Source: Ruania alba | GTDB taxonomy: Bacteria > Actinomycetota > Actinomycetes > Actinomycetales > Beutenbergiaceae | Length of the DNA stretch: 64,000 nt | NCBI RefSeq assembly: GCF_900105765.1 | Contig: NZ_FNTX01000001.1 | Coordinates: forward strand, 124,001-188,000 | Reading direction: 5' to 3' | Shown here: piece by piece, positions 17,476-38,714 of the stretch | Layout: every line of letters starts with the position of its first letter | Position numbering within the stretch: the stretch's first letter is position 1 | Translations under genes and position numbers: made by a program | The notes under the pieces: model-generated | Seen by the model: the letters and a program-made list of their open reading frames with translations, nothing else | Databases searched by the model: none | What the model was told of the DNA's origin: nothing

Positions 17476-17545
17476 CCACAATCTCGGCTATATCTCACCG
17501 AATGAGCGAGATTGCCCGCACTCGCGATGAAGGATGGCAGGACTG

Positions 17546-22080: not shown

Positions 22081-22140
22081 GGTGCTCTCCTGTCGTTCGT
22101 CTGAGACCACCGGTGAGGTGGGACGCGCGGGACGGGCGCG

Positions 22141-23325
22141 TCAGTTCTTGTAGGGGTCGGCGGCGTCGCGGAGGCCGTCACCGAAGAAGTTCATGGCGAG
22201 CACCGTGATCACCACGGCAACACCAGGCAGCAGGATCCACGGGGCAGTGGAGACAGCCCGGATGTTCTGGGCTTCCTGCAGCAGGACCCCCCAGCTCACC
22301 GTGGGCGGCTGCAGCCCGAGCCCGATGAACGAGAGCGCGGTCTCGGCCAGGATGATGGTCGGGATGGACAGCGAGAGGTTCGCGATGATGTGACTGGTGA
22401 ACGAGGGCAGCATGTGCCGGAACATCACCCGGCTCTGGCTGGCGCCGTCGGCGATCGCGGCGGAGACGTACTCCTCGTTGCGGACGGCGAAGAACTTCCC
22501 TCGCACCTCCCGGGCCATCCCCACCCAACCGACCAGGGAGATCACCACGGTCAGCGCGAGATAGCGGTGCACCGGGCTCCAGGACGAGGGCACGGCGGCG
22601 AAGAGTGCCATCCACAGCGGGATCGTGGGGATCGCGATGATGAACTCGATGAGTCGCTGGATCGCCGTGTCCACCTTGCCGCCGAGATAGCCGGAGATCC
22701 CTCCGAGCAGGATGCCGAGGAACAGCGAGAGCAGGACCCCGATGAGTCCCACGGACATCGAGATCGTGGTGCCGTGGATGATGCGGGAGAGCAGGTCTCG
22801 CCCGTTCGCGTCGGCGCCCAGGAGGTACATGGGTGTGCCCTCGTAGTCCGTGGGGCCGATCAGGTGCCTGTCCCAGGGGATGAAGCCGAGGATCTCGTAC
22901 TCGGCGCCCTGGACGAACAGTCCGATCGGCACCACCTGCTCGGTGTCCACCTCGAACGTCAGCGCGAGAGTGTCCGGGTCCTGCTCGAAGGTGTAGCCGT
23001 TCACATGCGGCCGGAACGAGCCCTCGTGGAACAGGTGGATCGACTGGGGCGGGGCGTAGGTGTACTCGTTGTTGTGCGCACTCGCCGGATAGGGCGCCAG
23101 GAACGGGGCGAGGATCGCGATGGCATAGATCGCCACGGAGATGATGCCGCAGACGAGGGCCACACGGTGCTTCTTGAAGCTCCACCACACCAGCTGGGAC
23201 TGTGAGGCGAGTGCGACCGAGTCCCGGACGCCGTCTTCGTCGCCGGACAGCTGCGCCGACTCCAACGGGTCCTTGCCTCTGGGGCTGAGTCCAGATCCGG
23301 ACTTCTGAGCGGATGTATCAGTCAT
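22141..23325 (-). CDS. ABC importer permease, DppC type with large extracytoplasmic insertion
   Basis: 394 residues. An N-terminal cytoplasmic tail of ~60 residues leads to the first helix (VALVCGIISVAIYAIAILAPF). About 120 extracytoplasmic residues follow before the next helices (YTYAPPQSIHLF, VNGYTFEQDPDTL, GFIPWDRHLIG), longer than in dipeptide permeases. The remaining five helices carry the EAA-type loop (EYVSAAIADGASQSRVMFRHMLPS). ATG 23325 has AGGAGGG upstream. The same insertion occurs in the paralogue at 50520, marking a subfamily associated with oligosaccharide uptake (inference). Confidence 0.9.
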   Translation of the reverse strand: MTDTSAQKSGSGLSPRGKDPLESAQLSGDEDGVRDSVALASQSQLVWWSFKKHRVALVCGIISVAIYAIAILAPFLAPYPASAHNNEYTYAPPQSIHLFHEGSFRPHVNGYTFEQDPDTLALTFEVDTEQVVPIGLFVQGAEYEILGFIPWDRHLIGPTDYEGTPMYLLGADANGRDLLSRIIHGTTISMSVGLIGVLLSLFLGILLGGISGYLGGKVDTAIQRLIEFIIAIPTIPLWMALFAAVPSSWSPVHRYLALTVVISLVGWVGMAREVRGKFFAVRNEEYVSAAIADGASQSRVMFRHMLPSFTSHIIANLSLSIPTIILAETALSFIGLGLQPPTVSWGVLLQEAQNIRAVSTAPWILLPGVAVVITVLAMNFFGDGLRDAADPYKN

Positions 23326-23341
23326 CGGTGGGTCCCTCCTC

Positions 23342-24334
23342 TCAGTACCGGAGCCGGACCCGGGGGTCCAACCAGGCGAGTGCAAGATCGGAGATCAGCG
23401 TGCCGAGAATCACGAGCAAGGCGCTGATCAGCAGGACGGAGCCTGCGAGGTACATGTCCTGCGCGAGCAGGGCATCGAGGAGCAGTGGCCCCGTGGTGCT
23501 GAGGTTCAGGACCTGTGAGGTGATCGCATCGGCGGCGATCAGACCAGGAAGGATCCAGCCGATGGTGGAGAAGAATGGGTTCATCGCCACCCGCACCGGG
23601 TACTTGATGGTCAGCAGGCCCTTCTTCATTCCCCTGGCCCTGGCTGCGGTGACGTAGGGCTTGCGCAGCTCGTCCAGGAGGTTCGCACGCAGGACCCGGA
23701 TGTTCGCCGCCGTCCCCGCCGTCCCCCAGATCACCACGGGGATCCAGATGTGGGAGAGGAAGTCACCGAACTTCGCCAGGCTCCACGGCACGTCCCGGTA
23801 CTCCGGCGAGAACAGACCGCCCACGCTCGTTCCGAAGTACGTGAGACTGAGCCACATCAGTACGAGCGCGATGAGGAAGTTCGGCACCGCCAGACCGAGA
23901 TAGCCGAAGAAGGTGAACGTGTAGTCCCCGGCCGAGTACTGGCGCATCGCCGAGTAGACCCCGATCGGGAACGACACGGCCCAGATGAACAGCAGCGTGA
24001 CGACCGAGAGCAGGATCGTCAGCGGAAGCCGTTCCGCGAGCAAGGCGCTCACGGAACGCCCGTAGACGAAGGAGTCGCCGAAGTCACCGCGTGCCACGAT
24101 GTTGGAGATCCACGTCCAGTACTGCACGTAGATCGGCTGATCGAGGCCGTATCGTGCCGTCAACCGGTCGAGCTCCTGCGCGCTCAGGGACCCGTCCCCC
24201 TCGGCGGCGAGCTGAGCCACTCTGGTAGTCAGGTAGTCACCTGGTGGCAGCTGGATCACGATGAAGGTGACCAGGGAGATCGCCGCCAGCGTCGGGATCA
24301 GGATCAGCAGGCGGCGGGCGATGTAGCGGAGCAC
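23342..24334 (-). CDS. ABC importer permease, DppB type
   Basis: 330 residues, six predicted helices. N-terminus MLRYIARRLLILIPTLAAIS and VIQLPPGDYLTTRV are the family's start, with RYGLDQPIYVQYWTW in the first loop and the EAA loop (PYVTAARARGMKKGLLTIKYP) on the cytoplasmic side. Forms the membrane pore with the DppC-type protein. Sixteen bases separate it from the next permease and 54 from the binding protein upstream, so one operon. Confidence 0.93.
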   Translation of the reverse strand: MLRYIARRLLILIPTLAAISLVTFIVIQLPPGDYLTTRVAQLAAEGDGSLSAQELDRLTARYGLDQPIYVQYWTWISNIVARGDFGDSFVYGRSVSALLAERLPLTILLSVVTLLFIWAVSFPIGVYSAMRQYSAGDYTFTFFGYLGLAVPNFLIALVLMWLSLTYFGTSVGGLFSPEYRDVPWSLAKFGDFLSHIWIPVVIWGTAGTAANIRVLRANLLDELRKPYVTAARARGMKKGLLTIKYPVRVAMNPFFSTIGWILPGLIAADAITSQVLNLSTTGPLLLDALLAQDMYLAGSVLLISALLVILGTLISDLALAWLDPRVRLRY

Positions 24335-24388
24335 CTGTGCTCACCTCCTCGTCTCGCGGGTGTCGGGGCGTACGTCATCGAGCGCCCA

Positions 24389-26392
24389 TCACTCCGAGAA
24401 GAACCATGACGGCGGATCGATGTGCCCCGGGGTCATGTGCAACCACGAGTCCGGGAAGGACTCGGCAACGTTCTGCAGGTTGTTCTTGACTACCGCGTAG
24501 CCCGGAGTGGGGAGCGCGATCCCGAGCACGTAGAACTGCTCCTTCGCGATCTGCAGGATCTCGCGGAACAGTTCCTGCTGCGCCTCCGGGTCCGGCTCCA
24601 GGGGAATCTGCCGGGCCAGCTCCATCTGGCGCTTGGTCTCCTCCGGGGGCTCCACGGCGTTCTCGCCGTCGCCCCGTGTGGTGTAGTACTCCGCCCATTG
24701 CATGGCGAAGTTCGACTCGCCGCCCGAGGGGAACCACCAGCGCTGCTCGAGCATCTCGATCTTGAGGCCACCGTCTCCGGCCCAGACGTTGGCGTCATGC
24801 TCGTTCGCTGCGGCGCCCTTGCGATCGTAGAAGAGGCTGCGTTCGATCGGGTTCACCTGCATGTCCACACCGACGGCGGCCCATGACTGGCTGACCAGGT
24901 CGGCCGCTGGTGCCCACTCCGGGAAGGTGTTCGTCACGTCGAGGCTGAACCGCAGGCGTTCACCGTTCGGCCGGAGCCGGAAGCCGTCGGTGTCCTTCTC
25001 AGTCAGTCCCGCCGCATCCAGGTGGCTGTTGGCCAGATCGACGTCGAACTCGGTGTACTGCTTGGCGAACTCCTCGTCGTAGAACGGCGAGTCCGGGTGC
25101 GGGGCCGCCTGCCAGGGCTCGCCCTGGCGCTGGTAGACGGTGTCGATGATGTCCTGCCGGTCGATGGCGTGGGAGAGGCCGACGCGGAAGTCCTTGTTGC
25201 GGAAGATCTCGGCGAGCTCTTCGTCCTGGTGGTTCATGTTCAACGCGATGATCATGCGGTTCATCGAGGTGGGCTGAACGTCCACGAAGCGAAAGTCACC
25301 GGTCTCGCGTGCCTCGGCCAGCACGGGCTTGTTCGCATCGCTGTTGAAGTGACGGGAGTGGAAGTCGAGCTCGCCGTTGACCGCCTTCAGGAGCATCACC
25401 TCTTCCTCCTGAATCACCTCGAACTCGAGCCGATCGATGTAGGGCAGCTGTGCGCCGCCGGAGTCGACCTTCCAGTAGTAGGGGTTGCGCTCGGCGACCG
25501 TGACGTTCCCCTCGTTCAGGGGATTGGTGATGATCCACGGGGTGAGGACCGGCCGCTCGGGGTTGTTCCACCAGTCGCGCCGGTCGACCCAGTAGTCGAC
25601 CCAGTTGCCGAAGCCGGCCTCCTCGGCGATGTCCTCGGCGTCCGGGTTCTGGCTCGGGAGGAACTGCTCCATGTAGTGCTTGGGGAAGAGGAGCAGGTTC
25701 GCTGAGACGACGTTCGCCACCCGGGAGATCTCCTCGATGAAGTCCCCCTTCGGCTGGGCGAAGGTCAGCTTCACCGCGAACTCGTCGACCTGTTCTGCTT
25801 CACAGGGTGCGTCCCCTGACATGAGGAGCCCAGGCGGGGTCGCGTACAGATCGGCGTCGTAGAAGACGTCGTTGATGGCGAACATGATGTCCTCAGACGT
25901 CACGGGCTCGCCGTCGGACCACTTCATCCCTTCGCGCATCTGCAGGGTGAACTCGGTCGCCGTGTCGTTCACGGTGACCTCCCGCAGTGCTCCGGGCAGG
26001 CCGAACTCATCGAGGTTCGGGTCGTAGCGCAGCAGCGGCTCGTGCCCGATCACCCGCTCCAGCCAGGGGGAGTCGCCCTGGTCGGCGACGGCACCGTGGT
26101 AGACGCCGCCGTAGACGCCGAGCGCCGCTGACTCGATGACGAGGCGATCTGCCTCGGCCGGGAGTCGTTCCTCCAGCGGGGGGAGGTCGCCGGCGTCGAC
26201 GAGCTCGGTGAGCTCGGGTGCCTCGAGGGGGCGGTTCGGATCCGGGGCGGCCTGGTCGTCGGTCGTGCCGCCACCGTCGTCGGCCTCGCAGGCGGTGAGC
26301 GACAGGGTCGCCAGGGCAGCCATGCCTCCGCCTGCCTGCAAGAGGTGGCGGCGAGAGATTCGCGGCGCGCGTCCGGGGCTGGTGTGTTGCAT
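24389..26392 (-). CDS. ABC importer substrate-binding lipoprotein, family 5 (Tat-type signal)
   Basis: 667-residue solute-binding protein. The N-terminus has both a twin-arginine motif (ISRRHLLQAGG) and lipobox LTAC with Cys35, so it is probably a Tat-exported lipoprotein. Further on are SBP_bac_5 signatures: GVYGGVYHG, FTLQMREGMKWSDGEPVTSEDI, FRVGLSHAIDRQDI. Larger than dipeptide-binding proteins (~540 aa), as for oligosaccharide binders. ATG 26392 has AGGAGG six bases upstream. First gene of the importer operon; a hairpin and a 16-bp shared element lie in its 245-base leader. Confidence 0.92.
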   Translation of the reverse strand: MQHTSPGRAPRISRRHLLQAGGGMAALATLSLTACEADDGGGTTDDQAAPDPNRPLEAPELTELVDAGDLPPLEERLPAEADRLVIESAALGVYGGVYHGAVADQGDSPWLERVIGHEPLLRYDPNLDEFGLPGALREVTVNDTATEFTLQMREGMKWSDGEPVTSEDIMFAINDVFYDADLYATPPGLLMSGDAPCEAEQVDEFAVKLTFAQPKGDFIEEISRVANVVSANLLLFPKHYMEQFLPSQNPDAEDIAEEAGFGNWVDYWVDRRDWWNNPERPVLTPWIITNPLNEGNVTVAERNPYYWKVDSGGAQLPYIDRLEFEVIQEEEVMLLKAVNGELDFHSRHFNSDANKPVLAEARETGDFRFVDVQPTSMNRMIIALNMNHQDEELAEIFRNKDFRVGLSHAIDRQDIIDTVYQRQGEPWQAAPHPDSPFYDEEFAKQYTEFDVDLANSHLDAAGLTEKDTDGFRLRPNGERLRFSLDVTNTFPEWAPAADLVSQSWAAVGVDMQVNPIERSLFYDRKGAAANEHDANVWAGDGGLKIEMLEQRWWFPSGGESNFAMQWAEYYTTRGDGENAVEPPEETKRQMELARQIPLEPDPEAQQELFREILQIAKEQFYVLGIALPTPGYAVVKNNLQNVAESFPDSWLHMTPGHIDPPSWFFSE

Positions 26393-26488
26393 CGTGGTCC
26401 TCCTCGACCGAACTGACGGTGTGACAGCTGCTGCAGCGGGAGGGAGGTATGGCACGTCTGTGACGGCACGCCTGCACCGCGCTTCTTG

Positions 26489-26525
26489 GAGATCTGAGCC
26501 CGTCATCGGCGATGGCTCAGATCTC
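26489..26525 (-). terminator. Strong hairpin between regulator gene and importer operon
   Basis: Perfect 12-bp arms GAGATCTGAGCC (26489-26500) and GGCTCAGATCTC (26514-26525), 13-base loop. It lies downstream of the regulator stop and upstream of the binding-protein start on the same strand, so it is either the regulator's terminator or a leader structure of the importer mRNA. No clear T-tract. Confidence 0.6.
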
Positions 26526-26585
26526 GCTATCCGCGGGTCCCTCTCGCGGTCGTCAGGCTAGCCAGCGAGCCACGCTCGATCGAGA

Positions 26586-26601
26586 AAATGGACAAAAGCG
26601 A
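26586..26601 (-). promoter_or_regulatory. 16-bp element, copy upstream of importer operon
   Basis: AAATGGACAAAAGCGA on the plus strand (TCGCTTTTGTCCATTT in importer sense), about 195 bases before the binding-protein start. An identical copy, in the same orientation relative to its gene, precedes the dehydrogenase at 27760. Both are followed by GATCGA within a few bases. Likely operator of the DeoR-type regulator encoded between them. Confidence 0.75.
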
Positions 26602-26637
26602 TCAGCGGGTCCGTTTGGGGCCTGTTTGGGGCGTTTG

Positions 26638-27708
26638 CTACTGCCCGTGGTGGACCGAACCGCCGCACGACTCGCGAATCGTCAGTCGGGGAAGGAGTTG
26701 CACATGACGCGGGGGGTTGGGCTCGTCGGCCCCGTCCAGGCGCCCCATCAGCATCCGGAGTGCCTCTCGTCCCAGCTCCAGGCGTGGCGGGGTGACCGCG
26801 GTCAGCGGTACCGCAGCATGGGCGACCAGGACGTCGTCGTAGGAGATCACGGCGAGATCCTCAGGGATCCGTAGTCCGCGAAGCTGCGCGATCTCGGCGA
26901 TCTGGATTGCGTGGTGGTCCGAATGGGCGAGAACCGCGTGGACGTCCGCAGCGAGGCATGCGTCCAGGAGCACCTCGGCCGCCTCGGAGACCTCCTGCAT
27001 ATTGTTCACGTCGGAGGGCAGGTCGGTGATGGGAACTGTGTCGAGGCCCAGTTGTTCGATGGCCTTCAGATAGCCGGCTCGGATCCATGGCGCCGTCGGC
27101 GTCCACATATCGACGGCGAGAGCGACCTTGGAGTGCCCGAGCTCGGCGAAGTGGTCGACGGCGAGCATCGCCCCGTAGGAGTGATCGGTTCTGATGCTGT
27201 CGATCTCGCGCGCCTCCCGGGTGGCGTCGTTGTGCCGTTCGAGCAGAACGACAGGTACGGGCAGGGACGCGAGCCACGGCGCGGTTTCCTCCGGCGACTG
27301 CAGATGGCTCGTCGTGAGAACCAGGCCCTTGACACCCAGGGAGAGGAGCCGATCGACGCGGCTGTGCACTGCTTCGGTGCTGTATCCGGCCACCCCCAGG
27401 ACGATCCTGGCGTGCATGGGCGCCGCGACGGACTCCATCCCCTGGAGAACCTCGGGATAGTAGAACGTTCGGGACGGAACGACCGCACCGATCAGAGTTC
27501 TGGCGGCGCCAGGGCGCCCGGCTGTGTTCCCGGTCGAGAGCGCTCCCCCGTGCACCCGCTCCAGCTGTCCTTGGTCGGCGAGCTCAGCGATGTCGCGGCG
27601 CACCGTGACTGCGGAGACTCCCATCGATTCGGCGACCTCAGCGGCGCGGACGCTGCCATGCAGCGCCAACTGGCGAAGGAGGAACTCCTGGCGTGCGTGC
27701 GGCAGCAT
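26638..27708 (-). CDS. DeoR-type HTH regulator with LacI-like sugar-binding domain
   Basis: 356-residue transcription factor. Residues 1-55 are a DeoR winged helix (ARQEFLLRQLALHGSVRAAE, then SAVTVRRDIAELADQGQLERVHGG). Instead of the usual DeoR sugar-phosphate domain the rest is a periplasmic-binding-protein-like sensor as in LacI proteins (VPVVLLERHNDATREAREIDSI with DHFAELGHSKVALAV, AVISYDDVLVAH, LTAVTPPRLELG). ATG 27708 has GGAG seven bases upstream; ATG 27744 is in frame without one. Divergent from the hydroxyacid dehydrogenase and upstream of the importer. The free sugar or oligosaccharide imported is the probable ligand (inference). Confidence 0.88.
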   Translation of the reverse strand: MLPHARQEFLLRQLALHGSVRAAEVAESMGVSAVTVRRDIAELADQGQLERVHGGALSTGNTAGRPGAARTLIGAVVPSRTFYYPEVLQGMESVAAPMHARIVLGVAGYSTEAVHSRVDRLLSLGVKGLVLTTSHLQSPEETAPWLASLPVPVVLLERHNDATREAREIDSIRTDHSYGAMLAVDHFAELGHSKVALAVDMWTPTAPWIRAGYLKAIEQLGLDTVPITDLPSDVNNMQEVSEAAEVLLDACLAADVHAVLAHSDHHAIQIAEIAQLRGLRIPEDLAVISYDDVLVAHAAVPLTAVTPPRLELGREALRMLMGRLDGADEPNPPRHVQLLPRLTIRESCGGSVHHGQ

Positions 27709-27759
27709 CGTCAACTCCGGGGTGAAGGCACGGTATTGACGCATCGTGACGCACCGCGT

Positions 27760-28858: not shown

Positions 28859-30136
28859 TCACGGCATTGAGAGCGCGACGACCTCGCCCCCGGTGAGGAG
28901 GAACGCGCGCTCGTCGTCAGCGGCCAGTGCCATGGCAGGCTGCGGCCATGTGGCGCCCGCCAGTGGGTGTCTGCCCGCCACGGAGGCGTGCTCCGGGTCC
29001 AGCAGCACCACGTCGAAAGCGACATCACCGTCCTGGAGTGCATCGAGGTCGGACGCTCGGAGCCCGTGGGCGACCAGGGCACTGCCGGCCCACGTGCATG
29101 GACAACTGATCGACCGGTACGTGGTGCGAGACTCCTGCGCCTGGCTCCCCTCCGCGGCACGTGTGCGGATGGTTGCGTAGCCCCATGGGTCGCCGTTCTT
29201 GACGTCTGACGGCCGGTCCGCGCTGATGGTGCTGATGACGGCGTCGTCGGTGACGCCGATCGGAGTCTCGTCCACCTCCCAGCGCCACAGCCACGGCTCG
29301 TCGATACTGTCGGCGACACCGCCGAGCATGATCGTGGGGGCGTCCTCCGACGCCCGTGCGTCGGCATCGAGATACATCAGTGTCCGTTCGAACGCGAGGG
29401 GAAGGCTCGGTGTGTAGGGCGCCGCGCTGAGCGTCGGCATCCGCTCCCCCGAGGCAGGTTCCACCATTCCCGGTTCCGGGTAAGCGGATCCGTTCTCACC
29501 GAACCACCAGATGATCGCTCGTTCGCTGACCGCCAGCTCGTGGAACGTGGGTGAGGTGCCGGCGGAAGACGGCTCGGCGAGAGTGGACCGCCATCGCTGG
29601 TGTCCGTCCGGGGCGAGGCGTGCGAGCCACCGCTCGCCCCGCCCTGTCCCTCCTGCGACGATCAGGTCCCCGCCCAAGGGCCCGGCCAGCTGGGCGCCGG
29701 GCACCCGGGTGCTGGTCGAGGAGCCGGTGGAGTCGATGAGGGTGATCGTGCCGTCGTCGGCACCGCGTCCAGAAGGTACACAGACAAGTCGGACGCCGTC
29801 GGAGGAGCAATGCGGCTCGGCCAGCGGCACCTGCCACAGGACAGCGCCGACGTGCGGGGAGCGGGCCACGACTGCGTTGCGTTCAGCGGTGACCACGGCT
29901 CCGCCGACGAGCCAGAGGCCCGCGTGGTTGCCCGCGTCGATACGGGCCGACCACTCCTGCCGTGCTTCGCGCCCCGGTGCGTCACCGCCCGGGGAGGTGA
30001 TCACCCCGGCCACCAGCAGCACGACGGCGACCATCGCCCAGGGCCATGGGCCTGACCAGGCCTGGGGTCGCCGTCGTGGGGGTTCACGCTCCGGGGCTAC
30101 GTCGCTTTCTCCGAGCGCGAACTCGTCGTGCGCCAT
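28859..30136 (-). CDS. PQQ-like beta-propeller membrane protein 1 of 6 (type A)
   Basis: 425 residues; function unknown. Short cytoplasmic tail with a DEFALGE motif and RRRP, one transmembrane helix (PWPWAMVAVVLLVAGVI), then an extracytoplasmic domain of beta-propeller-like repeats (GAVVTAERNAVVARSPHVGA, WRSTLAEPSSA, LLTGGEVVALSMP). Two cysteine motifs: C-x8-C (CSSDGVRLVC) and CPC (SISCPCTWAG). Last gene of the six-gene array, separated from gene 2 by 91 bases. ATG 30136 has no strong ribosome binding site. Convergent with the hydroxyacid dehydrogenase (8-base gap). Confidence 0.78.
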   Translation of the reverse strand: MAHDEFALGESDVAPEREPPRRRPQAWSGPWPWAMVAVVLLVAGVITSPGGDAPGREARQEWSARIDAGNHAGLWLVGGAVVTAERNAVVARSPHVGAVLWQVPLAEPHCSSDGVRLVCVPSGRGADDGTITLIDSTGSSTSTRVPGAQLAGPLGGDLIVAGGTGRGERWLARLAPDGHQRWRSTLAEPSSAGTSPTFHELAVSERAIIWWFGENGSAYPEPGMVEPASGERMPTLSAAPYTPSLPLAFERTLMYLDADARASEDAPTIMLGGVADSIDEPWLWRWEVDETPIGVTDDAVISTISADRPSDVKNGDPWGYATIRTRAAEGSQAQESRTTYRSISCPCTWAGSALVAHGLRASDLDALQDGDVAFDVVLLDPEHASVAGRHPLAGATWPQPAMALAADDERAFLLTGGEVVALSMP

Positions 30137-30227
30137 CTGTTCATCATGCCCTGGTGGCACGGACCGGTCTCTTTGGTGCGCTCAACGGACGCGTCGGCGC
30201 GTCATGACGGCGCCGGGATGGATCAGG

Positions 30228-31523
30228 TTACTGAGCCGTCAGCGCCACGACCTCCCCGCCGGTGAGAACGAAGACGGCCTCGCCGTGGCTCGCCAGGCGA
30301 GTCGTGTCGTTGCCCCATTCGGTGACGAGCGGGTGACGCCACGTGGGCGAAGCCGTTTCGCGATTGAACAGCACCAAGTCGACGGTGCCCTGGCCTTCGT
30401 CGAGCGCAGCCCGGTCAGCCACACGTATTCCCCGTGCCACCAGGCCATCAGGGGTGGCTGTGCAGGGGCAGGTGACGTCCAGGTACGGGGAGTCCGACTC
30501 TGCCAGAGTCTGGCCTGAGCGGAGATCGCGGAAGCGGACGGCGGCCGGATGCAGCGGACCGTCCTGATCGGGCGGTTCGTCGCCAGCGCCGTGCAAGCTC
30601 TCGCTCAGCAGCGTCGTAACGACGGTATCGCCGTCGATGGCGAGGGGTGCTTCCCGCTCGTCCCAGCGCCAGAGCCAAGGTTCGTCCACTCCGGGCGCCA
30701 CCCCACCCTGCAGAAGAACGATCGAGCTCGTGGGATCCCGCTCGTCACTTTCCAGCACATGCCGCTCCCGTACGTGGGCGTCCGGATCGGACGACGATGC
30801 TCTGGCGGGAGGGAAAACATGGAACGGCTCTCCGTCATCGGGATCAATGGCCTGGAAGATCGGCCAGATGAAGTCACCGTCTGTGAAGCGCCAGAGGACG
30901 CGTTCGTCGGTCGCGTGCAGGTGACCGAAAGCCAACGTCTCCGGAGCCTCGAGGTGGCCCTCGAGATCTGTGTGCCACACCGCCTCGCCGTGCGGATCCA
31001 GCCGCTCCACCCACGGTGCCGCCATCTCACCCCCGGCGACCACGAGATCCGCACCGAGCGGCGTGGCCACCTGGACGCCCGGGATCTGCTGATCGTGGGT
31101 GCTCCCGTCGGCATCGATCTCGGTGATCACGGCGTCTGTGCCATCGGTGGTCACGCACGCCAGGCGCAGCCCGTCCGAGGAACACAGCGGATCGTCCAGC
31201 GGCACCGTCCAACGCTCCGCCCCGTCCTCCGGGGTGCGCGCCACGACACGCTCGGCCTCGACGATCGTCACGAGTCCGTCCATGACCCAGACGCTCGGGC
31301 TGGACCCGGAGGCGACGTCCACCGCCCAGGTGACCTCCGCCGTCGCGATCGGGCGCATACCACCGGGAGAGGACACCACCCCGGCCACGAGGAGCACGAC
31401 GGCGACCATCGCCCATGGCCATGGACGTGACCAGGTCCGGGGTCGCCGTCGGGAAGGGCGAGCAGCAGGTGCGCTCGCGGCATCTCCTGCGCCGAGCGTG
31501 AACTCATCCGCGGCCCCGGTCAC
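30228..31523 (-). CDS. PQQ-like beta-propeller membrane protein 2 of 6 (type A)
   Basis: 431 residues, closest to gene 1. Tail motif DEFTLGAGD, RRRP, helix PWPWAMVAVVLLVAGVV identical over 17 residues to gene 1, then propeller-like repeats. C-x8-C (CSSDGLRLAC) and CPC (DVTCPCTATP) both present; C-terminus FVLTGGEVVALTAQ resembles gene 1's. GTG 31523 overlaps the preceding stop by four bases (GTGA), which settles the start although the frame is open far upstream. Confidence 0.78.
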   Translation of the reverse strand: MTGAADEFTLGAGDAASAPAARPSRRRPRTWSRPWPWAMVAVVLLVAGVVSSPGGMRPIATAEVTWAVDVASGSSPSVWVMDGLVTIVEAERVVARTPEDGAERWTVPLDDPLCSSDGLRLACVTTDGTDAVITEIDADGSTHDQQIPGVQVATPLGADLVVAGGEMAAPWVERLDPHGEAVWHTDLEGHLEAPETLAFGHLHATDERVLWRFTDGDFIWPIFQAIDPDDGEPFHVFPPARASSSDPDAHVRERHVLESDERDPTSSIVLLQGGVAPGVDEPWLWRWDEREAPLAIDGDTVVTTLLSESLHGAGDEPPDQDGPLHPAAVRFRDLRSGQTLAESDSPYLDVTCPCTATPDGLVARGIRVADRAALDEGQGTVDLVLFNRETASPTWRHPLVTEWGNDTTRLASHGEAVFVLTGGEVVALTAQ

Positions 31524-32710
31524 GACAGGTCCCACCCGATGACGCCTGTCTCGCCCAGAACGTACAGGCGCTCGCCGTCGCTGGTGACGTCGAGGATGAC
31601 GTCCCCTGGTGTGAGCGTCCAGCGGGTGCCGCCGGTGGGGATGTCGAGTGCGATCAACTCGGAGGAGTCGGAGTAGAGGAACGTCTCCGGCCCGAGCAGG
31701 GGTGGGTCGAACGTGAGGATTTCTGGGCCAGTGCGCCACAGTTCGTCGCCCGTCGCGGGATCCTCGGCGATGAGCACACTGGGGCCGTGCTCCCGCTGGG
31801 TGAGGAATCCGAGGGTTGCGTCCGGGAGGAAGGCGACCGGTCGCCAGCGATTCAATTCCTTCTCGTCGATGGCCCGGATCAGACCTGGGTCCTGCGCCGT
31901 GACCGACCAGGAGACCCAGCCGTCGAGCGTCAGCGCCGGGTGATCTCGTCGGTGCAGCCAGATCGCATCCTGGTCGCTCGAGCGCCACAGTCCGTCGCGG
32001 AGCTGCGCCGGTGAGATCCCGGCGTCGGGCACGGACAGCGTGCGCCCGGTATCGGCGTCGAGGACAGGACCTGGCGCTGACTGGCCGATGAGTGTCATCA
32101 GGACCATGCCGTCGAGCACCTCGGGCCCGGCGCCGAGCGTCAGGCGGAAGGCGACGTCTCTCGACCACACGAGCTCTCCGCTCACCGTCACACGGCGGAC
32201 ATCCTGAGCCGTGACCGCAACGATGTCGTTGTCGACGCTCGCGGCGGCGGCAACTCCCGGAATCTCGTACGGTCGCGCCCACCCGGACTGCGGGTCGATG
32301 ATCTGGACGGTGTCGGGACCGTTCGTGCAGGTGAGATCCACACCGTCGGACGTGCAGGTGGGTTCCTCGGCATCGAGGCGCCAGATTTCGTCGCCACTGG
32401 CCGAGTCGATGCCGGTGACACCATCAGGGGCGCGAGTGACCACCACCCCCGAGAACACCCAGAACGCGTCGGCGGAGACCGGCGCCTCCCAGGCCAGGGA
32501 GGGTTCGTCGTGCAGGGCGGGGACGTAGCCCCACGGGTCGACCACCGGTCCCTGCTGAGGAGCCGCCAGCGTGCCAGCGACGACGAGGATGACGGCGAGC
32601 ACGGCCCACGGCCAGGGACCCGACCAGGCGACGTCGCGTCGTCGGGCGGGCGCTCGTGCGGAGACGCCCGCGTCGTCACGGGCGACGGCGAACTCCTCAA
32701 GAGGCACCAT
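31520..32710 (-). CDS. PQQ-like beta-propeller membrane protein 3 of 6 (type B)
   Basis: 396 residues. Tail EEFAVARDD, RRR, helix PWPWAVLAVILVVAGTL, then GPVVDPWGYVPALHDEPSLAWE, a segment shared only with gene 4. Propeller-like repeats with GVTGIDSASGDEIWRLD and LYVLGETGVIGWDLS at the end. C-x8-C is kept (CTSDGVDLTC), but the CPC motif of genes 1, 2, 5 and 6 is absent. Start and stop overlap both neighbours by one and four bases, so translation is coupled along the array. Confidence 0.78.
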   Translation of the reverse strand: MVPLEEFAVARDDAGVSARAPARRRDVAWSGPWPWAVLAVILVVAGTLAAPQQGPVVDPWGYVPALHDEPSLAWEAPVSADAFWVFSGVVVTRAPDGVTGIDSASGDEIWRLDAEEPTCTSDGVDLTCTNGPDTVQIIDPQSGWARPYEIPGVAAAASVDNDIVAVTAQDVRRVTVSGELVWSRDVAFRLTLGAGPEVLDGMVLMTLIGQSAPGPVLDADTGRTLSVPDAGISPAQLRDGLWRSSDQDAIWLHRRDHPALTLDGWVSWSVTAQDPGLIRAIDEKELNRWRPVAFLPDATLGFLTQREHGPSVLIAEDPATGDELWRTGPEILTFDPPLLGPETFLYSDSSELIALDIPTGGTRWTLTPGDVILDVTSDGERLYVLGETGVIGWDLS

Positions 32711-33957
32711 CAGCCGCCCACCGTCCAGGCCTGGATCCCCGCATTGCTCAGCAGATAGAGCCGGGTGCCGTCGCTGGTGACTTCCCGATGATCGCCCGGA
32801 ATGCGCCAGAGCTCGTCACCGGTCTCGGCGTGGACTCCGATGTAGCCCAACTCCCGGGATTGTCCGTCGAACGAGATCAGCTGGTACGCCACCGCACCGT
32901 CGCCGACGAGCATGTCGGGCCCGAAGCCGAGGCCACCGGTCTGATCGCTGCGCCACAGCACAGCACCGCTGGAGTCCAGGCCCACCATCTGCGGCGACTC
33001 GCCGAGAGCGACCCCCAGATGCACATCACCCACCACGGCGGTGACATGGACGTCGTCGTCACCACCCTGTGGCGGCTCGCTCAGGACAGACGGATCGGTC
33101 ATCGTCGTGAACGTGAACGGCCACTCGGAGACCATCGGCTCGTCTTTGCCGCGGAGCAGAAACTCTGTCGTCGGCCCGGAGGTGAAGGCCCATACCCCGT
33201 CCCGGACCGGTACCGGATAGCCACCCGGGGACTCGACCGGTGCGCCCGTCTCGGGGTCCAGGGCGGCGAGCCCGGAGAATCCGCTGCCGAACCCGCCGGT
33301 GTCAGCCCGGAGCATCACGACCATCCCGCCGGCAATGTCAGGTCCGGCGAGCCACGCCTGCGGCGCTTGCGCGTCTTCCTCCGCTGCCCAGAGGATCGTC
33401 CCGTCCGGGGCGATCCTGCGTATCCCCGACTCCGTCAGTGCGATGAGGTCCCCACCGAACTGAGTGGCCCCGATGATCCCGTCCACTGTCTGCTCGCGCG
33501 CCGTGCCGCTGCGCGGATCGATCGCGAGGACGGTGCTGTCGTCGATCACGCAGGTCAGTTCGGTACCGGACGACGTGCAACGGGGGAGCGTGGCCGAGAC
33601 CGACCACCGCTGGACGCCGGTCCTGCTGTCCAGGCCGATCACCTCCTGACCGGCGGCGACGGCGAGTACACCCCGGAACGCCCACATCTGCTGGATCTCG
33701 GTGTGCTCCAACTCCCACGCGAGGACCGGCGGCGTGCTCAGGTCCGGGACCCGACCCCACGGGTCCACCACGGGGCCCGGCCGCGGTGCGGTGACCGCGC
33801 CGGCCAGCACGAGGAGGACGGCTAATCCCGCCCAGGGCCACGGGCCGGTCAGGTGGGAACCGGTGCGTCGTCGCGGTGGCCGTGTGGGCGGTTCGGCAGC
33901 AGTGCCCGACGGCGGAACGTCGCCGCCGATGATGAACTCGTCTTCTGCCCTCCCCAT
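32710..33957 (-). CDS. PQQ-like beta-propeller membrane protein 4 of 6 (type B)
   Basis: 415 residues, pairs with gene 3. Tail DEFIIGGD, Pro-rich stretch, RRR, helix PWPWAGLAVLLVLAGAV, then GPVVDPWGRVPDLSTPPVLAWE. Repeats include EVIGLDSRTGVQRWSVSA and GETGDELWRIPGD-like ETGDELWRI. C-x8-C kept (CTSSGTELTC), CPC absent. ATG 33957 starts 26 bases after the stop of gene 5; its own stop overlaps the start of gene 3 by one base. Confidence 0.78.
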   Translation of the reverse strand: MGRAEDEFIIGGDVPPSGTAAEPPTRPPRRRTGSHLTGPWPWAGLAVLLVLAGAVTAPRPGPVVDPWGRVPDLSTPPVLAWELEHTEIQQMWAFRGVLAVAAGQEVIGLDSRTGVQRWSVSATLPRCTSSGTELTCVIDDSTVLAIDPRSGTAREQTVDGIIGATQFGGDLIALTESGIRRIAPDGTILWAAEEDAQAPQAWLAGPDIAGGMVVMLRADTGGFGSGFSGLAALDPETGAPVESPGGYPVPVRDGVWAFTSGPTTEFLLRGKDEPMVSEWPFTFTTMTDPSVLSEPPQGGDDDVHVTAVVGDVHLGVALGESPQMVGLDSSGAVLWRSDQTGGLGFGPDMLVGDGAVAYQLISFDGQSRELGYIGVHAETGDELWRIPGDHREVTSDGTRLYLLSNAGIQAWTVGG

Positions 33958-33983
33958 CAGGCCATCATGCTCTCCATCGCGGA

Positions 33984-35288
33984 TCAGGTGTCCGTATAGG
34001 CGGTGAGCGTGCCGTCGGAGAGGACGTACACCTGGTCCGAGCCGGCAGCGAGACCGTCCGGGACAGCAGCGATCGGAAGGGTCCACCGGTGCGCGCCGGT
34101 GTCGAGGTCGATGCCGAGGAGGGCTTGGGGAACGAGGGGTGACGAGGGCGGGTCAGCATCGCGGTCGAGGCGCGTATCGATCGCGACAAACAAGCCTTCA
34201 TGCACGATGCACGGGCACCCGACGTGGGACTCCCGCGGGAGTGCCCATTGAGGGTCCCCGGTGCGGACCTCGATCCGCTCGACACGGGTGATGGGTCGCT
34301 CTGGTGTCCATCGGTTCGGATCGACAATGGTCGCGATGAGGTCCTCGCCGAGCGTCGCCAGCGGCTGGCCGTGCATCTCTAGGAGCGGCTCGCCACCAGC
34401 CGCGGTGTAGATCTCGCTGCCCGCAATGACGGCGTCCGGGTACCCGGGGACCGTCAGTTCCGGTCCCGTCATCGGCAGGATCATGGGCTGGAACCGCTCG
34501 TCGACCTCGTCCCCACCGCCGAATCCCGAGGTCCCGCCTGCCGTACGGACGACCGCGTGCCGCTGCACCCCTGTCTCCGCGTCGGCAGCGATCGCGGTGG
34601 AGACCCATCCGTGCGGATCCGTCCCGCTGAACGCCGTGGCCACCCCCTGGCTCAGCGTCATGCCCTGCCATCGGCCCGTGTCCACGGGATATTCGAGATC
34701 AACCTGCCAGAGCGGCCCATCCCTGTCGTCGGCAGGGTAGCGCCCCAACCACAGCAGCCCGTCGGGTGAGGCTGTGCCACCGACGATCAGATCGTCGTCG
34801 ATGGCATGGGCGACATCGGCACCGGGGAACGGTCGATCGGCGCTGATCTCACCCTCGGTGGTGAGGGTGGCGATCGCGGCTTCCGCCCCCTCGCCATACA
34901 CACAGGTCAGCTCACCGCCCGACTCGGTGCAGGCCGGGTCGTCCAACGGCACGGTCCACGAACGCGCACCCGCGGCATCGAACGCAGTCACCCCGTCGAC
35001 CTCGCTGATCACGACCTGCCCGCCCATCGCCCACACGTCGGGTGCCCGACCCGGCTGCACGTCCGCGTTCCACACCATCGGCGGTGGGTCCGGTTCCGGA
35101 CGATCACCACGTGGGGAGACCAGCGCACCGGCCACCACCAGCACGGCTGCCGCGGTGACCCATGGCCAGGGCGAGCGGCGCCACTCACCGGGGCTGCGCC
35201 GTCGTGATCGCTCCGCATCCGGACGGTCGTGGCCTGCAGGCTCGGCGTCCCCGCCGTCGAGCGAGAACTCCTCGATCGGCCCGCGCAC
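33984..35288 (-). CDS. PQQ-like beta-propeller membrane protein 5 of 6 (type A)
   Basis: 434 residues. Tail EEFSLDGGD, RRR, helix beginning SPWPWVTAAAVLVVAGALV, then a propeller-like ectodomain (VDGVTAFDAAGARSWTVPLD; ETGVQRHAVVR; LLGIDLDTGAHRWTLPI). Has C-x8-C (CTESGGELTC) and CPC (HVGCPCIVHE). GTG 35288 abuts the stop codon of gene 6 with no gap, supporting this start. Confidence 0.78.
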   Translation of the reverse strand: MRGPIEEFSLDGGDAEPAGHDRPDAERSRRRSPGEWRRSPWPWVTAAAVLVVAGALVSPRGDRPEPDPPPMVWNADVQPGRAPDVWAMGGQVVISEVDGVTAFDAAGARSWTVPLDDPACTESGGELTCVYGEGAEAAIATLTTEGEISADRPFPGADVAHAIDDDLIVGGTASPDGLLWLGRYPADDRDGPLWQVDLEYPVDTGRWQGMTLSQGVATAFSGTDPHGWVSTAIAADAETGVQRHAVVRTAGGTSGFGGGDEVDERFQPMILPMTGPELTVPGYPDAVIAGSEIYTAAGGEPLLEMHGQPLATLGEDLIATIVDPNRWTPERPITRVERIEVRTGDPQWALPRESHVGCPCIVHEGLFVAIDTRLDRDADPPSSPLVPQALLGIDLDTGAHRWTLPIAAVPDGLAAGSDQVYVLSDGTLTAYTDT

Positions 35289-36560
35289 CTAGCTCACCGG
35301 ATCCGGGTAGGCGGTCACGGTCGATCCGACCAGCACGAAGAACGTCGACTCGTCCGCCGTCATCGCCCGCAGCTCCGGGGAGACATCGACATGCCCATGC
35401 GACTGCCCGGACTCCCGGTCGTACCAGGCAAGCGCCAGGGCCTCGGTGCTCAGGTCTGCCGTCATGCCGCCCTGCGGTTCCCCGGTGACCAGCAGGAGGG
35501 AACTGTCAGAAGCCGCGCACGGGCAGACAGCGGCACGAGCGCTCGGCAGCGACTGCGACCACTGAACCGCGCCGCTGATCGCATCGTAGGCACGGAGCTC
35601 GTTCTCGTTCGAGGAACTGTCGTCGGCGGTGTAGACGGTGGACCCGACGGCGGCGACGGGACGCCCCTCGAACTGCATGATCGTGCTGCCACCGACACCG
35701 TCCAGCACGGCGCCGAGGGTGACGACGGCGCCCGGGTACTCGGGCAGGCCGAACCGCTCCAGGGAGAGCCAGACAGGGGTCTGTGGCCCGGCCGCATTCG
35801 CGACGTCGAGATCGTCCACGTCCATCACCAGGAGCATCCCGCCCGGGGAAGGGAAGGCCATCGTCGCCGGATCTCCGGTCTCCAGGTTCACGCTGGTCAG
35901 CGACCAGGAGCGCGCGGATGCGCTCCGGGACGCCGACGCATCCGCCACCACGATCCCGTCCCGCGCGGCCACGGCCTGCCACCTGTTGGTGCCGAAGCCC
36001 TCGCTGGTGTGTTCCCAGAGCGGGTCGCCCTCGGCCTCGACCCGGCGGAGCCATCGGCCGTCGTCGCTCTGCCCGCCCAGCACCAGACCGGTGTCGGTCG
36101 CCGCAGCCACCTGCGCACCCGGGATCGTCATCGACTGAGCGGAACCGTCTGCCTCGACGGTCGTCACGGTTGCCTCTGGACCCTGGCCGTGCACGCAGAT
36201 GAGAGCCAGCCGGTCCTCGGTGCAGGTGGGATCACGCATCGGCAGGGCCCACTCCTCGGTCCCGTCCGCAGGGTCGAGGGCGACCAGCGCATCGGCCGTG
36301 GTCGCCATGACCACACCGTCCACGGCCCACACCCCGGGTGTCGATCCCGTCTCCAGGTCGATCGTCCACGCAGTTGCGGGAGCCGTCTCGCCCCGTGGTG
36401 AGGACACCACTCCGGCCATCACCAGCATCACGGCCACCGTGACCCACGGCCCAGGGGAGCGGAGCCACCTGCGCATGCCCCGCCGTCGGGCGCCCACAAC
36501 GGGCCGGTCCACTCCGCTGCCACCCTCCAGCGCGAACTCCACGACCTGCCCTGTCCCCAT
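35289..36560 (-). CDS. PQQ-like beta-propeller membrane protein 6 of 6 (type A)
   Basis: 423 residues from ATG 36560 (GTG 36563 is the in-frame alternative). Tail VEFALEGG, two RR(R) clusters, helix PGPWVTVAVMLVMAGVV, then repeats (DALVALDPADGTEEWALPM; DAISGAVQWSQSL). C-x8-C (CTEDRLALIC) and CPC (AAVCPCAASD) present. First gene of the array in transcription order; a hairpin at 36596-36621 separates it from the isomerase-like gene upstream, so the array probably has its own promoter. Confidence 0.78.
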   Translation of the reverse strand: MGTGQVVEFALEGGSGVDRPVVGARRRGMRRWLRSPGPWVTVAVMLVMAGVVSSPRGETAPATAWTIDLETGSTPGVWAVDGVVMATTADALVALDPADGTEEWALPMRDPTCTEDRLALICVHGQGPEATVTTVEADGSAQSMTIPGAQVAAATDTGLVLGGQSDDGRWLRRVEAEGDPLWEHTSEGFGTNRWQAVAARDGIVVADASASRSASARSWSLTSVNLETGDPATMAFPSPGGMLLVMDVDDLDVANAAGPQTPVWLSLERFGLPEYPGAVVTLGAVLDGVGGSTIMQFEGRPVAAVGSTVYTADDSSSNENELRAYDAISGAVQWSQSLPSARAAVCPCAASDSSLLLVTGEPQGGMTADLSTEALALAWYDRESGQSHGHVDVSPELRAMTADESTFFVLVGSTVTAYPDPVS

Positions 36561-36648: not shown

Positions 36649-37554
36649 TCAGAGGTAGGGCTGGACGAGACGGGAGTAGCGCTCGGCCATGGTGGCCACC
36701 GTCTCAGCGCCGGGGGCGTCCCAGATCTCCTGGTTGAAGATCTCGACCTCTACATCGCCGGCATAGCCGGCCTCGTGCACCCAGCGGGTGATCGTGGGGA
36801 AGTCGATGTAGCCGTCGCCCATGAAGCCGCGGGAGAGCAGCGGGTCGGCCGCCAGCGGCAGAATCCAGTCGCATACCTGGTAGGAGGCGATCCGGCCCTC
36901 GCGGCCGGCGCGGGCGATCTGCTCGCGCAGTGTCGGATCCCACCACACGTGATAGGTGTCCACCACCACGCCCACCTGCTCCGGCGGGAACTCCGCCGCC
37001 AGGTCCAGGCACTGGCCCAGGGTGGAGAGCACCGCGCGGTCGGCGGCGAAGATCGGGTGCAGCGGTTCCAGCACCAGCCGCACCCCGTGCTCGGCCGCGA
37101 ACGGGGCGAGCTCGGCGATCCGATTCGCCACCCGGGTGCGGGCGGCCACGATGTCCTTGTCGCCATCGGGCAGCGCCGGGCCACCGGGAGTGGTGGCTGC
37201 GGGCAGCCCGCCGACCACCATGACCAGCTCGGACGTACCGAGCGTGGCGGCCTCGACGATCGCCACCCGGTTGTCCCCGAGCGCCTCGGACTGACCGGAC
37301 TCGTCGGCAGCGGTGAGGAACCCGCCGCGGCACAGCGAGGAGACTCGCAGGCCCGCGTCTGCCACGATTGTCGCCGCGTTCTCCAGGCCCGCCTCGGCCA
37401 CCCGGTCCCGCCACAGCCCGACGGCGCCCAGCCCGGCCTCGGCGGCCACGTCGACCGCCTCGGCGAGGGTCAGGGCCTTCGTCGTGGCCGTGTTCAGGGA
37501 GAGGCGAGACAGGTCGGTCACGGTTGCTGCGCCGTCGGGGGTTGCGGCGTTCAC
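36649..37554 (-). CDS. Sugar phosphate isomerase/epimerase-like TIM-barrel protein
   Basis: 301-residue AP-endonuclease-2-fold protein, metal-dependent sugar epimerase/isomerase type (IolE/xylose-isomerase-like). Seen: SLNTATTKALTLAEAVDVAA, GLWRDRVAE, RLVLEPLHPIFAADRAV, VGVVVDTYHVWWDP, GDVEVEIFNQEIW with the usual metal-ligand Glu/Asp/His positions. GTG 37554 overlaps the stop of the Gfo/Idh gene by four bases, so the two enzymes are made together, a common pairing for oxidation followed by isomerisation of an unusual sugar or cyclitol. Exact substrate unknown. Confidence 0.88.
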   Translation of the reverse strand: MNAATPDGAATVTDLSRLSLNTATTKALTLAEAVDVAAEAGLGAVGLWRDRVAEAGLENAATIVADAGLRVSSLCRGGFLTAADESGQSEALGDNRVAIVEAATLGTSELVMVVGGLPAATTPGGPALPDGDKDIVAARTRVANRIAELAPFAAEHGVRLVLEPLHPIFAADRAVLSTLGQCLDLAAEFPPEQVGVVVDTYHVWWDPTLREQIARAGREGRIASYQVCDWILPLAADPLLSRGFMGDGYIDFPTITRWVHEAGYAGDVEVEIFNQEIWDAPGAETVATMAERYSRLVQPYL

Positions 37555-38714
37555 AGGGAGATCTGCTCGAGCTCGACGCGCTTGCCCTCCGCGGACGAGG
37601 CAAGCCCGGCCTCGGCCAGCTGCACGCCGCGCGCGGCGGAAAGCAGGTCGTAGCGGTGCTCACGCCCGGCGAGCACGTCGCGCAGGAACTCCTCCCACTG
37701 GGCCTTGAACCCGTTGTCCAGGTCGCCGTTAGCGGGCACTTCCATCCACTGGTCGCGGAAGGACTCGGTGACCGGTAGGTCCGGGTTCCAGACGGGCTTG
37801 GGCGTGTGGGCGCGCTGCTGGGCGACGCACTTGTTCAGGCCCGCGACGGCGGAACCGTGGGTGCCGTCCACCTGGAACTCGACGAGCTCGTCGCGGTAGA
37901 CGCGTACCGCCCAGGAGGAGTTGATCTGGGCGACGATATCCTCCCCACCCGGGCCGGCGATCTCGAAGATGCCGTAGGCGGCGTCGTCGGCGGTGGCGGC
38001 GTACTCGGCGCCCTTCTCGTCCCAGCGGGTGGGGATGTGGGTGATGGTCTTCGCGGTGACCGACTTGACCGAGCCGAGGATGCCCTCGAGCACGTAGTTC
38101 CAGTGGCAGAACATGTCGGTGGTCATGCCGCCGCCGTCCTCGGAGCGGTAGTTCCAGCTCGGGCGCTGCGCGGCCTGGTGCTCGCCCTCGAACACCCAGT
38201 AGCCGAACTCCCCGCGCAGGGAGAGGATGCGGCCGAAGAAGCCCTCGTCCACCAGACGGCGGAGCTTGACCAGGCCTGGCAGGTACAGCTTGTCGTGGAC
38301 GACTCCGGCGGTGACGCCGGTCTCGGCGCGCAGGCGTGCCAGCTCGATGGCCTCGTCCAGGGTCTCGGCGGTCGGCTTCTCGGTGAAGATGTGCTTGCCG
38401 GCCTTCATCGCCTTGGTCAGGGTGGCCGGACGCAGGCTGGTCATCGAGGCGTCGAAGACGATGTCGGTGCGCTCGTCGGTGACGATGGCGTCCAGGTCGG
38501 TGGTGTACTCGGCGATGTTGTGCTCGGCGGCGATCTCGGCGAGGGCGTTCTCACGGCGGCCGACCAGGATCGGCTCGACCTGGACCTTGGTGCCGTCGGC
38601 GAGCGTGATCCCGCCCTGGTCGCGGATCGGCAGGATCGACCGGAGCAGGTGCTGGCGATAGCCCATCCGGCCGGTGATGCCGTTCATCGCGATGCGCAGG
38701 GTGCGGGTGCTCAT
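37551..38714 (-). CDS. Gfo/Idh/MocA-family oxidoreductase
   Basis: 387-residue NAD(P)-dependent dehydrogenase. Rossmann start TLRIAMNGITGRMGYRQHL, EKP motif (HIFTEKPTAETLDEA), catalytic-region HDKLYLPGLVKLRRL and GGGMTTDMFCHWNYVLEG. ATG 38714 has AGGAG six bases upstream. First gene of a two-gene operon with the TIM-barrel protein, behind a LacI-boxed promoter. Different subfamily from the 12544 enzyme (no close similarity beyond the fold). Confidence 0.9.
   Translation of the reverse strand: MSTRTLRIAMNGITGRMGYRQHLLRSILPIRDQGGITLADGTKVQVEPILVGRRENALAEIAAEHNIAEYTTDLDAIVTDERTDIVFDASMTSLRPATLTKAMKAGKHIFTEKPTAETLDEAIELARLRAETGVTAGVVHDKLYLPGLVKLRRLVDEGFFGRILSLRGEFGYWVFEGEHQAAQRPSWNYRSEDGGGMTTDMFCHWNYVLEGILGSVKSVTAKTITHIPTRWDEKGAEYAATADDAAYGIFEIAGPGGEDIVAQINSSWAVRVYRDELVEFQVDGTHGSAVAGLNKCVAQQRAHTPKPVWNPDLPVTESFRDQWMEVPANGDLDNGFKAQWEEFLRDVLAGREHRYDLLSAARGVQLAEAGLASSAEGKRVELEQISL

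Follow-up and report, generated by a model that had tools for sequence, protein, structure and literature searches.

A tandem array of membrane-anchored propeller-like proteins in Ruania alba and a few related genera, with a constant tail, fast-diverging ectodomains, and exchange of segments between copies

In a 64-kb stretch of Ruania alba DNA, hereafter the window, positions 28859-36560 carry six intact paralogous open reading frames, all on the minus strand, encoding proteins of 396-434 amino acids. Computational comparison with homologous genes shows a common protein architecture with conserved and variable parts, gain and loss of copies, and exchange between copies. We propose, with a probability of roughly 0.45, that these genes form a lineage-restricted, recombining display array, in which a constant tail and anchor carry variable ectodomains that would act in recognition or protection at the cell envelope.

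All six proteins consist of an N-terminal tail of approximately 30-40 residues, a single transmembrane helix, and an ectodomain of approximately 350 residues. A preliminary description, made from the sequence of this DNA only, had already recognized six tandem genes of one design, and the shared E-F tail, helix, and ectodomain bear this out. The genes, in the order of transcription, are as follows.

Gene 1, type A: 35289..36560, minus strand; tail VVEF, transmembrane helix at residues 37-53, predicted propeller, C-x8-C and CPC
Gene 2, type A: 33984..35288, minus strand; tail IEEF, C-x8-C and CPC; abuts gene 1
Gene 3, type B: 32710..33957, minus strand; tail DEF, GPVVDPWG, C-x8-C, without CPC
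Gene 4, type B: 31520..32710, minus strand; tail EEF, GPVVDPWG, C-x8-C, without CPC; 1-nucleotide overlap with gene 3
Gene 5, type A: 30228..31523, minus strand; tail DEF, C-x8-C and CPC; 4-nucleotide overlap with gene 4
Gene 6, type A: 28859..30136, minus strand; tail DEF, C-x8-C and CPC

In the alignment of the six proteins, E8-F9, RR, P-x-P-W, C113, and C122 are invariant, and the tail motif reads [D/E/V]-E-F. The alignment agrees with the preliminary description in that C-x8-C occurs in all six proteins, CPC is confined to genes 1, 2, 5, and 6, and GPVVDPWG to genes 3 and 4. Its count of four invariant cysteines has to be corrected, since genes 3 and 4 have two cysteines each and C-x8-C is the sole invariant pair. 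Starts and stops are in contact at three of the five junctions, where genes 1 and 2 abut and genes 3 and 4 as well as 4 and 5 overlap; the overlaps noted earlier do not extend to junctions 2/3 and 5/6, which have gaps of 26 and 91 nucleotides. A profile of the six proteins detected no seventh copy in the same genome at E values up to 1.

AlphaFold2 models of genes 1 and 4, each based on 17 aligned sequences, reached pLDDT (predicted local distance difference test) values of 78.8 and 76.4 and predicted template modeling scores (pTM) of 0.76 and 0.74, respectively. Both comprise a disordered tail, a helix at residues 37-53 (gene 1) or 32-49 (gene 4), and an almost all-beta remainder. In Foldseek searches with both models, BamB led the PDB matches and designed eight-bladed propellers were among the top ones, with a probability of 1.00, TM-scores of about 0.5, and root mean square deviations of 6-10. 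As modeled for these two proteins, the ectodomain is a BamB-like beta-propeller whose blade number is not fixed by the matches; the propeller and the single helix with an inner tail had both been anticipated in the preliminary description. Genes 1, 3, 4, and 5 match PF13360 (PQQ_2) with 29-51.5 bits, above the gathering cut-off of 27.6 bits, while genes 2 and 6 remain below it with 18.4 and 20.1 bits. The BamB equivalog model TIGR03300 gave 12-28.4 bits in three of the six proteins versus a cut-off of 285.2, and the Rv3212 family model NF050114 gave 14.6-18.2 bits in four versus a curated cut-off of 150, with no match in the other two. Models of PQQ-dependent dehydrogenases matched gene 1 only, and below threshold (PF01011, 21.1 versus 26.7 bits; TIGR03075, 11.9 versus 480.05 bits). 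The C-x8-C cysteines of gene 1 lie on neighboring predicted strands, 112-115 and 119-124, so that the pair looks like one placed for a structural hairpin disulfide.

The family is lineage restricted, occurring in few genera as far as genomes were sampled. Here, G00n denotes a genome and L0nn_n a gene in a fetched locus, whereas positions of the array refer to the window. Within the bacterial family to which R. alba belongs, array proteins were detected in 16 of 24 genomes and 4 of 10 genera. The survey of related genomes suggested in the preliminary description yielded 4-6 matches, fragments included, in each of the eight Ruania genomes, all of which were positive, and a recurrent Gfo/TIM flank, detailed below; two other carrier genera are presumably Occultella and Pseudactinotalea. 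Outside the family, at most 29 candidates were scored per genome. None of 55 genomes of an order-wide sample matched at 1e-6. A class-wide sample of 60 genomes was composed of the R. alba genome itself, 3 genomes of the order already counted, and 56 further ones; beyond the R. alba genome it produced partial propeller matches only, in three genomes, and the one examined, L136, is without the E-F tail. Since neither the 55 order-wide nor the 56 further class-wide genomes contained one, there was no full-length match among 111 sampled genomes outside the family. A search of viral contigs with gene 5 as the sole query and one of plasmids with gene 2 as the sole query found no relative.

The fetched loci and the window gave 70 profile hits. 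Without the fragments L022_8, L030_13, L036_7, and L042_8 and the distant hit L027_5, 65 remained that were treated as intact, including two short forms. Genes were called with a simple caller trained on the window genes, which sometimes places starts too late. The cysteine pair, whose conservation in homologues had been named earlier as a point to check, is present as C-x7-12-C in 65 of the 65 intact homologues, and the [E/D]F tail motif in 61, which extends the claim of a conserved inner tail beyond the window. CPC was found in 35 and any CxC in 40, and four members have C-x13-C instead. The tail motif is missing in L026_9, a stand-alone Ruania copy, in L030_8, and in L033_5 and L033_6, two proteins from another genus with D-E-I-E-L or D-E-V-E-L in the tail. 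The array member L030_8 (L030:5535-6674; the same gene as L050:10973-12112) has a lipoprotein-like signal, VTGC, which suggests a change of anchoring. Under one blind rule, a tail motif upstream of a hydrophobic segment was recognized in 59 of 64 family frames versus 6 of 268 control frames, although the rule missed the real tail of L024_7 and found no early transmembrane segment in L045_7, which has a tail. Near the called N termini of other proteins, the motif occurred in 17 of 1,559 cases. The enrichment of the tail motif in the family exceeds chance.

Mean pairwise identity over a 58-row alignment was 0.37 in the tail, a figure that is biased because starts in this set were picked by the motif, 0.39 in the transmembrane segment, and 0.30, 0.20, and 0.23 in the N-terminal, middle, and C-terminal ectodomain, respectively. 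This alignment left out forms shorter than 300 residues as well as L030_13, L027_5, L022_8, L042_8, and L036_7, lost six hits through the motif-based start rule, and gained three non-hits, L034_7, L036_10, and L038_7, at the collection step. Loci with full-length members also contain five short relatives with the same E-F tail, transmembrane segment, and cysteine pair but no room for a propeller; the four that were scanned had no Pfam match.

Short relatives, 145-184 amino acids: L031:7487-7924, L034:5756-6310, L036:8887-9354, L041:7627-8085, L047:7631-8068

A 53-position profile of tail and transmembrane segment was run against 11 genomes, scoring 150 of 810-1,521 candidates per genome, and all matches below 1e-4 were family members or short relatives. 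Weaker matches were mostly partial and of the transmembrane type, and two were nearly full length (E values of 0.11 and 0.63).

A 52-row tree, rooted at the midpoint, separates an A group with genes 1, 2, 5, and 6 from a B group with genes 3 and 4, each with support of 100/99, confirming the order A-A-B-B-A-A, and the comparison of the paralogues supports the earlier suggestion of duplication. For five of the six window genes, the tree supports a sister row or group in other Ruania genomes; gene 2 falls in an unresolved group of 12 rows. Most of the six copies thus go back to old lineages, and copies have been gained as well as lost. In genomes that have B genes, these come behind the leading A genes, the order seen in the window; no intact B gene was seen at the array of G002. 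The proteins also change faster than their surroundings. When window proteins are paired with their counterparts in G004 or G002, the five closest pairs share 42-65% identity, in comparison with 89-92% for the adjoining TIM-barrel protein and 99% for the Gfo/Idh/MocA oxidoreductase. Between G004 and G006, the ratio of nonsynonymous to synonymous change (dN/dS) was 0.22-0.46 in four non-chimeric pairs versus 0.06-0.12 in five neighbor genes.

Several genes carry traces of exchange between copies. L028_8 in G006 is chimeric: its tail and the start of its transmembrane segment match L024_12 (0.95-0.97 nucleotide identity over the first 40 codons), whereas its ectodomain matches L024_13. In G003, identity between L023_6 and L023_7 is 0.85-0.97 up to alignment column 160 and drops to 0.50-0.73 after it, whereas L023_7 compared with L030_11 of G007 gives 0.71-0.83 before this point and 0.74-0.90 after it. 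The identity of L023_6 and L023_7 in the first 160 columns thus lies above that of either cross-genome pair there (0.71-0.83), and the profile against L030_11 has the form of a gene-conversion pattern. L030_10 and L030_11 of G007 likewise reach 0.87-0.92 over columns 40-200, with 0.66 in the first 40. At the anchor, an 87-bp segment coding for RRR, PWPW, and the transmembrane helix is 0.75-0.94 identical in DNA among seven of eight genes compared (five of type A and two of type B), whose ectodomains are 0.40-0.67 identical. In the window, genes 5 and 6 share 86% DNA identity over this segment.

Gene 5 anchor segment, RRR-PWPW-transmembrane: 31359..31451, minus strand
Gene 6 anchor segment, RRR-PWPW-transmembrane: 29984..30076, minus strand

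The eight genes, and five pairs used for a codon test, were selected for the resemblance of their anchors. Where the encoded amino acids are identical, anchor codons match more often than ectodomain codons in all five chosen pairs (uncorrected P values of 0.031 to 3.5e-8), and the same 29-mer, allowing one free base, turns up in seven genes from four genomes, of both types. The chimeric gene, the gene-conversion patterns, and the sharing of anchor DNA even at synonymous codons show, at the level of sequence comparison, that segments have been exchanged between copies. Fast evolution, restriction to a few genera, and recombination between copies go beyond the single-sequence view of the preliminary description.

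A display array would account for these features as follows. A tandem set of single-pass membrane proteins would each present a BamB-like propeller outside the cytoplasmic membrane. The constant part would comprise the tail motif D/E-E-F-x-L, the transmembrane anchor, and the first propeller part with C-x8-C, and the variable part the middle and C-terminal ectodomain. Copies would diverge, become lost or broken, and trade pieces through gene conversion and unequal recombination, and exchange at the anchor segment might, in some genes, re-pair tails with ectodomains. The ectodomains could then offer alternative recognition or protection surfaces that bind different ligands, in the envelope or external to it, for example secreted proteins of competitors or envelope polymers. 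A single cytoplasmic partner may bind or sort all of the tails; the preliminary description had already suggested docking of this kind, and it fits the conservation of the tail in 61 of 65 homologues, although no partner was found. A constant inside, a better-kept first propeller part, and a fast, exchanging outside are what is expected of a display family whose outer face encounters changing partners while its inner face deals with a constant one, and for this reason we favor recognition or protection; the ligands, the partner of the tail, and the biological role are what we infer beyond the computed features. In its boldest version, the locus would recombine a docking motif and anchor with a propeller repertoire to form a multi-specific receptor or immunity array against other bacteria or phages in few genera. 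We consider this version rather unlikely. No toxin linked to the array was recognized, so that immunity is kept as the boldest form only.

A number of observations weigh against recognition or protection by exchanging ectodomains. No toxin, signaling, or defense gene constantly linked to the array was recognized, none of the six proteins matched PADLOC anti-phage models at E values up to 0.1, and the constant neighbors are of the sugar-metabolism type. Positive selection was rejected, as sliding dN/dS over five close pairs gave no value clearly above 1 (highest, 1.1), which leaves room for relaxed constraint. The maximum for any single region, 1.52, comes from the tail and transmembrane segment of L024_10/L028_10, where the display reading would expect constraint, and is based on very few changes. 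In one A-type pair, the C terminus of L028_7 is 25 residues longer, which may raise dN, and dS is elevated along with dN, possibly as a result of exchange with unsampled strains. Signs of exchange are also uneven: the similarity of L023_6 and L030_10 does not recover in the 3' half, where identity is 0.47-0.75. In the anchor comparison, the eighth gene chosen, L022_12, is only 0.61-0.64 alike, and window anchors reach no more than 0.69 for genes 1-2 and 0.62 for genes 3-4, so that anchor sharing is not general.

On its upstream side, the array is preceded by two genes.

Xylose-isomerase-like TIM barrel (PF01261): 36649..37554, minus strand; also flanks the array on the left in related genomes
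Gfo/Idh/MocA oxidoreductase: 37551..38714, minus strand

Ruania and Pseudactinotalea loci have the same order of Gfo/Idh/MocA gene, TIM-barrel gene, and array, and in Occultella loci a fucosidase and a desaturase gene intervene between the TIM-barrel gene and the array. With the TIM-barrel gene as a query, 80 loci were fetched, of which 5 had family members; Georgenia has the Gfo and TIM genes without the array. The far side is bounded by a gene for a flavin adenine dinucleotide (FAD)-binding protein, which is on the opposite strand in the loci inspected and directly adjoins the array in several genomes; proteins like the one encoded at 17534-19702 of the window share 79-87% identity in 10 fetched loci. 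In the window, apparent transport and regulator genes separate the two: positions 19921-27744 contain a gene for a peptide-type binding protein, genes that look transporter-like by eye, and a regulator with a DeoR helix-turn-helix. This segment looks inserted or rearranged because FAD and SDR genes border the array directly in other genomes.

Foreign genes can occur in array loci, for example an HNH gene beside a DUF222-like protein (DUF222 below the cut-off) inside the array at L024:6732-8541, and a PIN-type protein, judged by eye, lies inside the array at L030:6719-7126. A small DUF2171/PRC-barrel-like protein accompanies the array in four genomes (L021:4016-4378, L022:6896-7258, L024:4901-5305, and L029:3799-4203). 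It is identical in G004 and G006 (dN/dS of 0) while the propellers differ; it was rejected as the common partner, since a search of 18 genomes detected it in 4, that of the window not among them. Toxin-immunity by linkage gained no clear support, as a scan of selected neighbors of stand-alone copies found only one weak neighbor resembling the type VII secretion system. At L047:8248-10091, in a stand-alone locus, a small protein and an EspC-like/alpha-beta-hydrolase-like protein, with Pfam matches below the cut-off, lie beside a short tail protein; the R. alba genome has no EspC-family match at E values up to 0.01.

Among the explanations ranked below recognition or protection, a redundant envelope scaffold comes first, though we regard it as rather unlikely. 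BamB- or Rv3212-like propellers would assemble or hold envelope proteins and evolve fast since copies are individually dispensable. That BamB is the best relative by structure and by PDB sequence, that four of the six proteins weakly match the Rv3212 family, that copy number varies and fragments occur, and that dN/dS is below or near 1 would all suit such a role. The Rv3212 scores nevertheless stay far below the curated cut-off, only 4 of the 10 genera of the family carry the proteins, and plain redundancy does not predict supported sister groups elsewhere for five of the six window genes.

Less probable still are carbohydrate-linked receptors, propellers that would bind sugars or polysaccharides and act with the adjoining sugar-catabolism genes. 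The position of the array downstream of the Gfo/Idh and TIM-barrel genes in three genera (in Occultella after the fucosidase and desaturase genes) speaks for them, as do some stand-alone copies of the Occultella genus beside a gene for a DUF3502 binding-protein-like protein, a 2-hydroxyacid dehydrogenase, or a rhamnose mutarotase. However, 75 of the 80 loci fetched with the TIM-barrel gene, including those of Georgenia and Arthrobacter, have no family propeller gene in the flank covered (some flanks being short), no carbohydrate-binding family matched the array proteins in a Pfam scan, and the window alone has several sugar-type regulators and transport genes, which makes adjacency to the array cheap evidence. 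At the bottom of the ranking, and very improbable, is a surface redox or metal array acting through the cysteines, as the preliminary description had considered. C-x8-C in all six proteins and CPC in 35 of 65 homologues would be in keeping with it; CPC is absent in the other 30, however, four members have C-x13-C instead, and PQQ-enzyme models remain below their cut-offs. Lack of CPC conservation, together with the placement of C-x8-C on the predicted strands like the cross-strand pair of a hairpin, led us to reject it as the main explanation.

While the fold itself is known, our literature searches turned up no propeller family described as combining fast-diverging ectodomains and segment exchange among its copies with a cytoplasmic tail that is invariant. 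If the array is truly a recognition or immunity repertoire, an actinobacterial lineage that has received little study would possess a surface system of the constant/variable kind. The E-F tail provides a concrete handle for fishing out a common partner.

BamB (YfgL; PF13360 PQQ_2/TIGR03300) is a lipoprotein of the outer-membrane assembly machine of Gram-negative bacteria. The likeness of the array proteins to BamB lies in the PQQ-like propeller matched by Foldseek and in a weak sequence match around the first blade, whereas they differ in their transmembrane anchor, their inner tail, and their actinobacterial lineage, in which a BAM complex of the outer membrane is not expected. The resemblance to the Rv3212 family (NF050114) is likewise weak and concerns the first blade in four of the six proteins. 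A different parallel is offered by the staphylococcal tandem lipoproteins (DUF576, TilA). These occur in arrays with a variable number of non-identical surface-anchored paralogues, for which a protective role against the toxin variants that other strains produce has been suggested (PMC10730906). TilA proteins are lipoproteins, and the toxin gene tslA lies next to tilA, whereas the proteins described here are transmembrane anchored and no toxin gene was recognized beside their array. By analogy only, TilA arrays are a functional precedent for arrays of surface-anchored paralogues.

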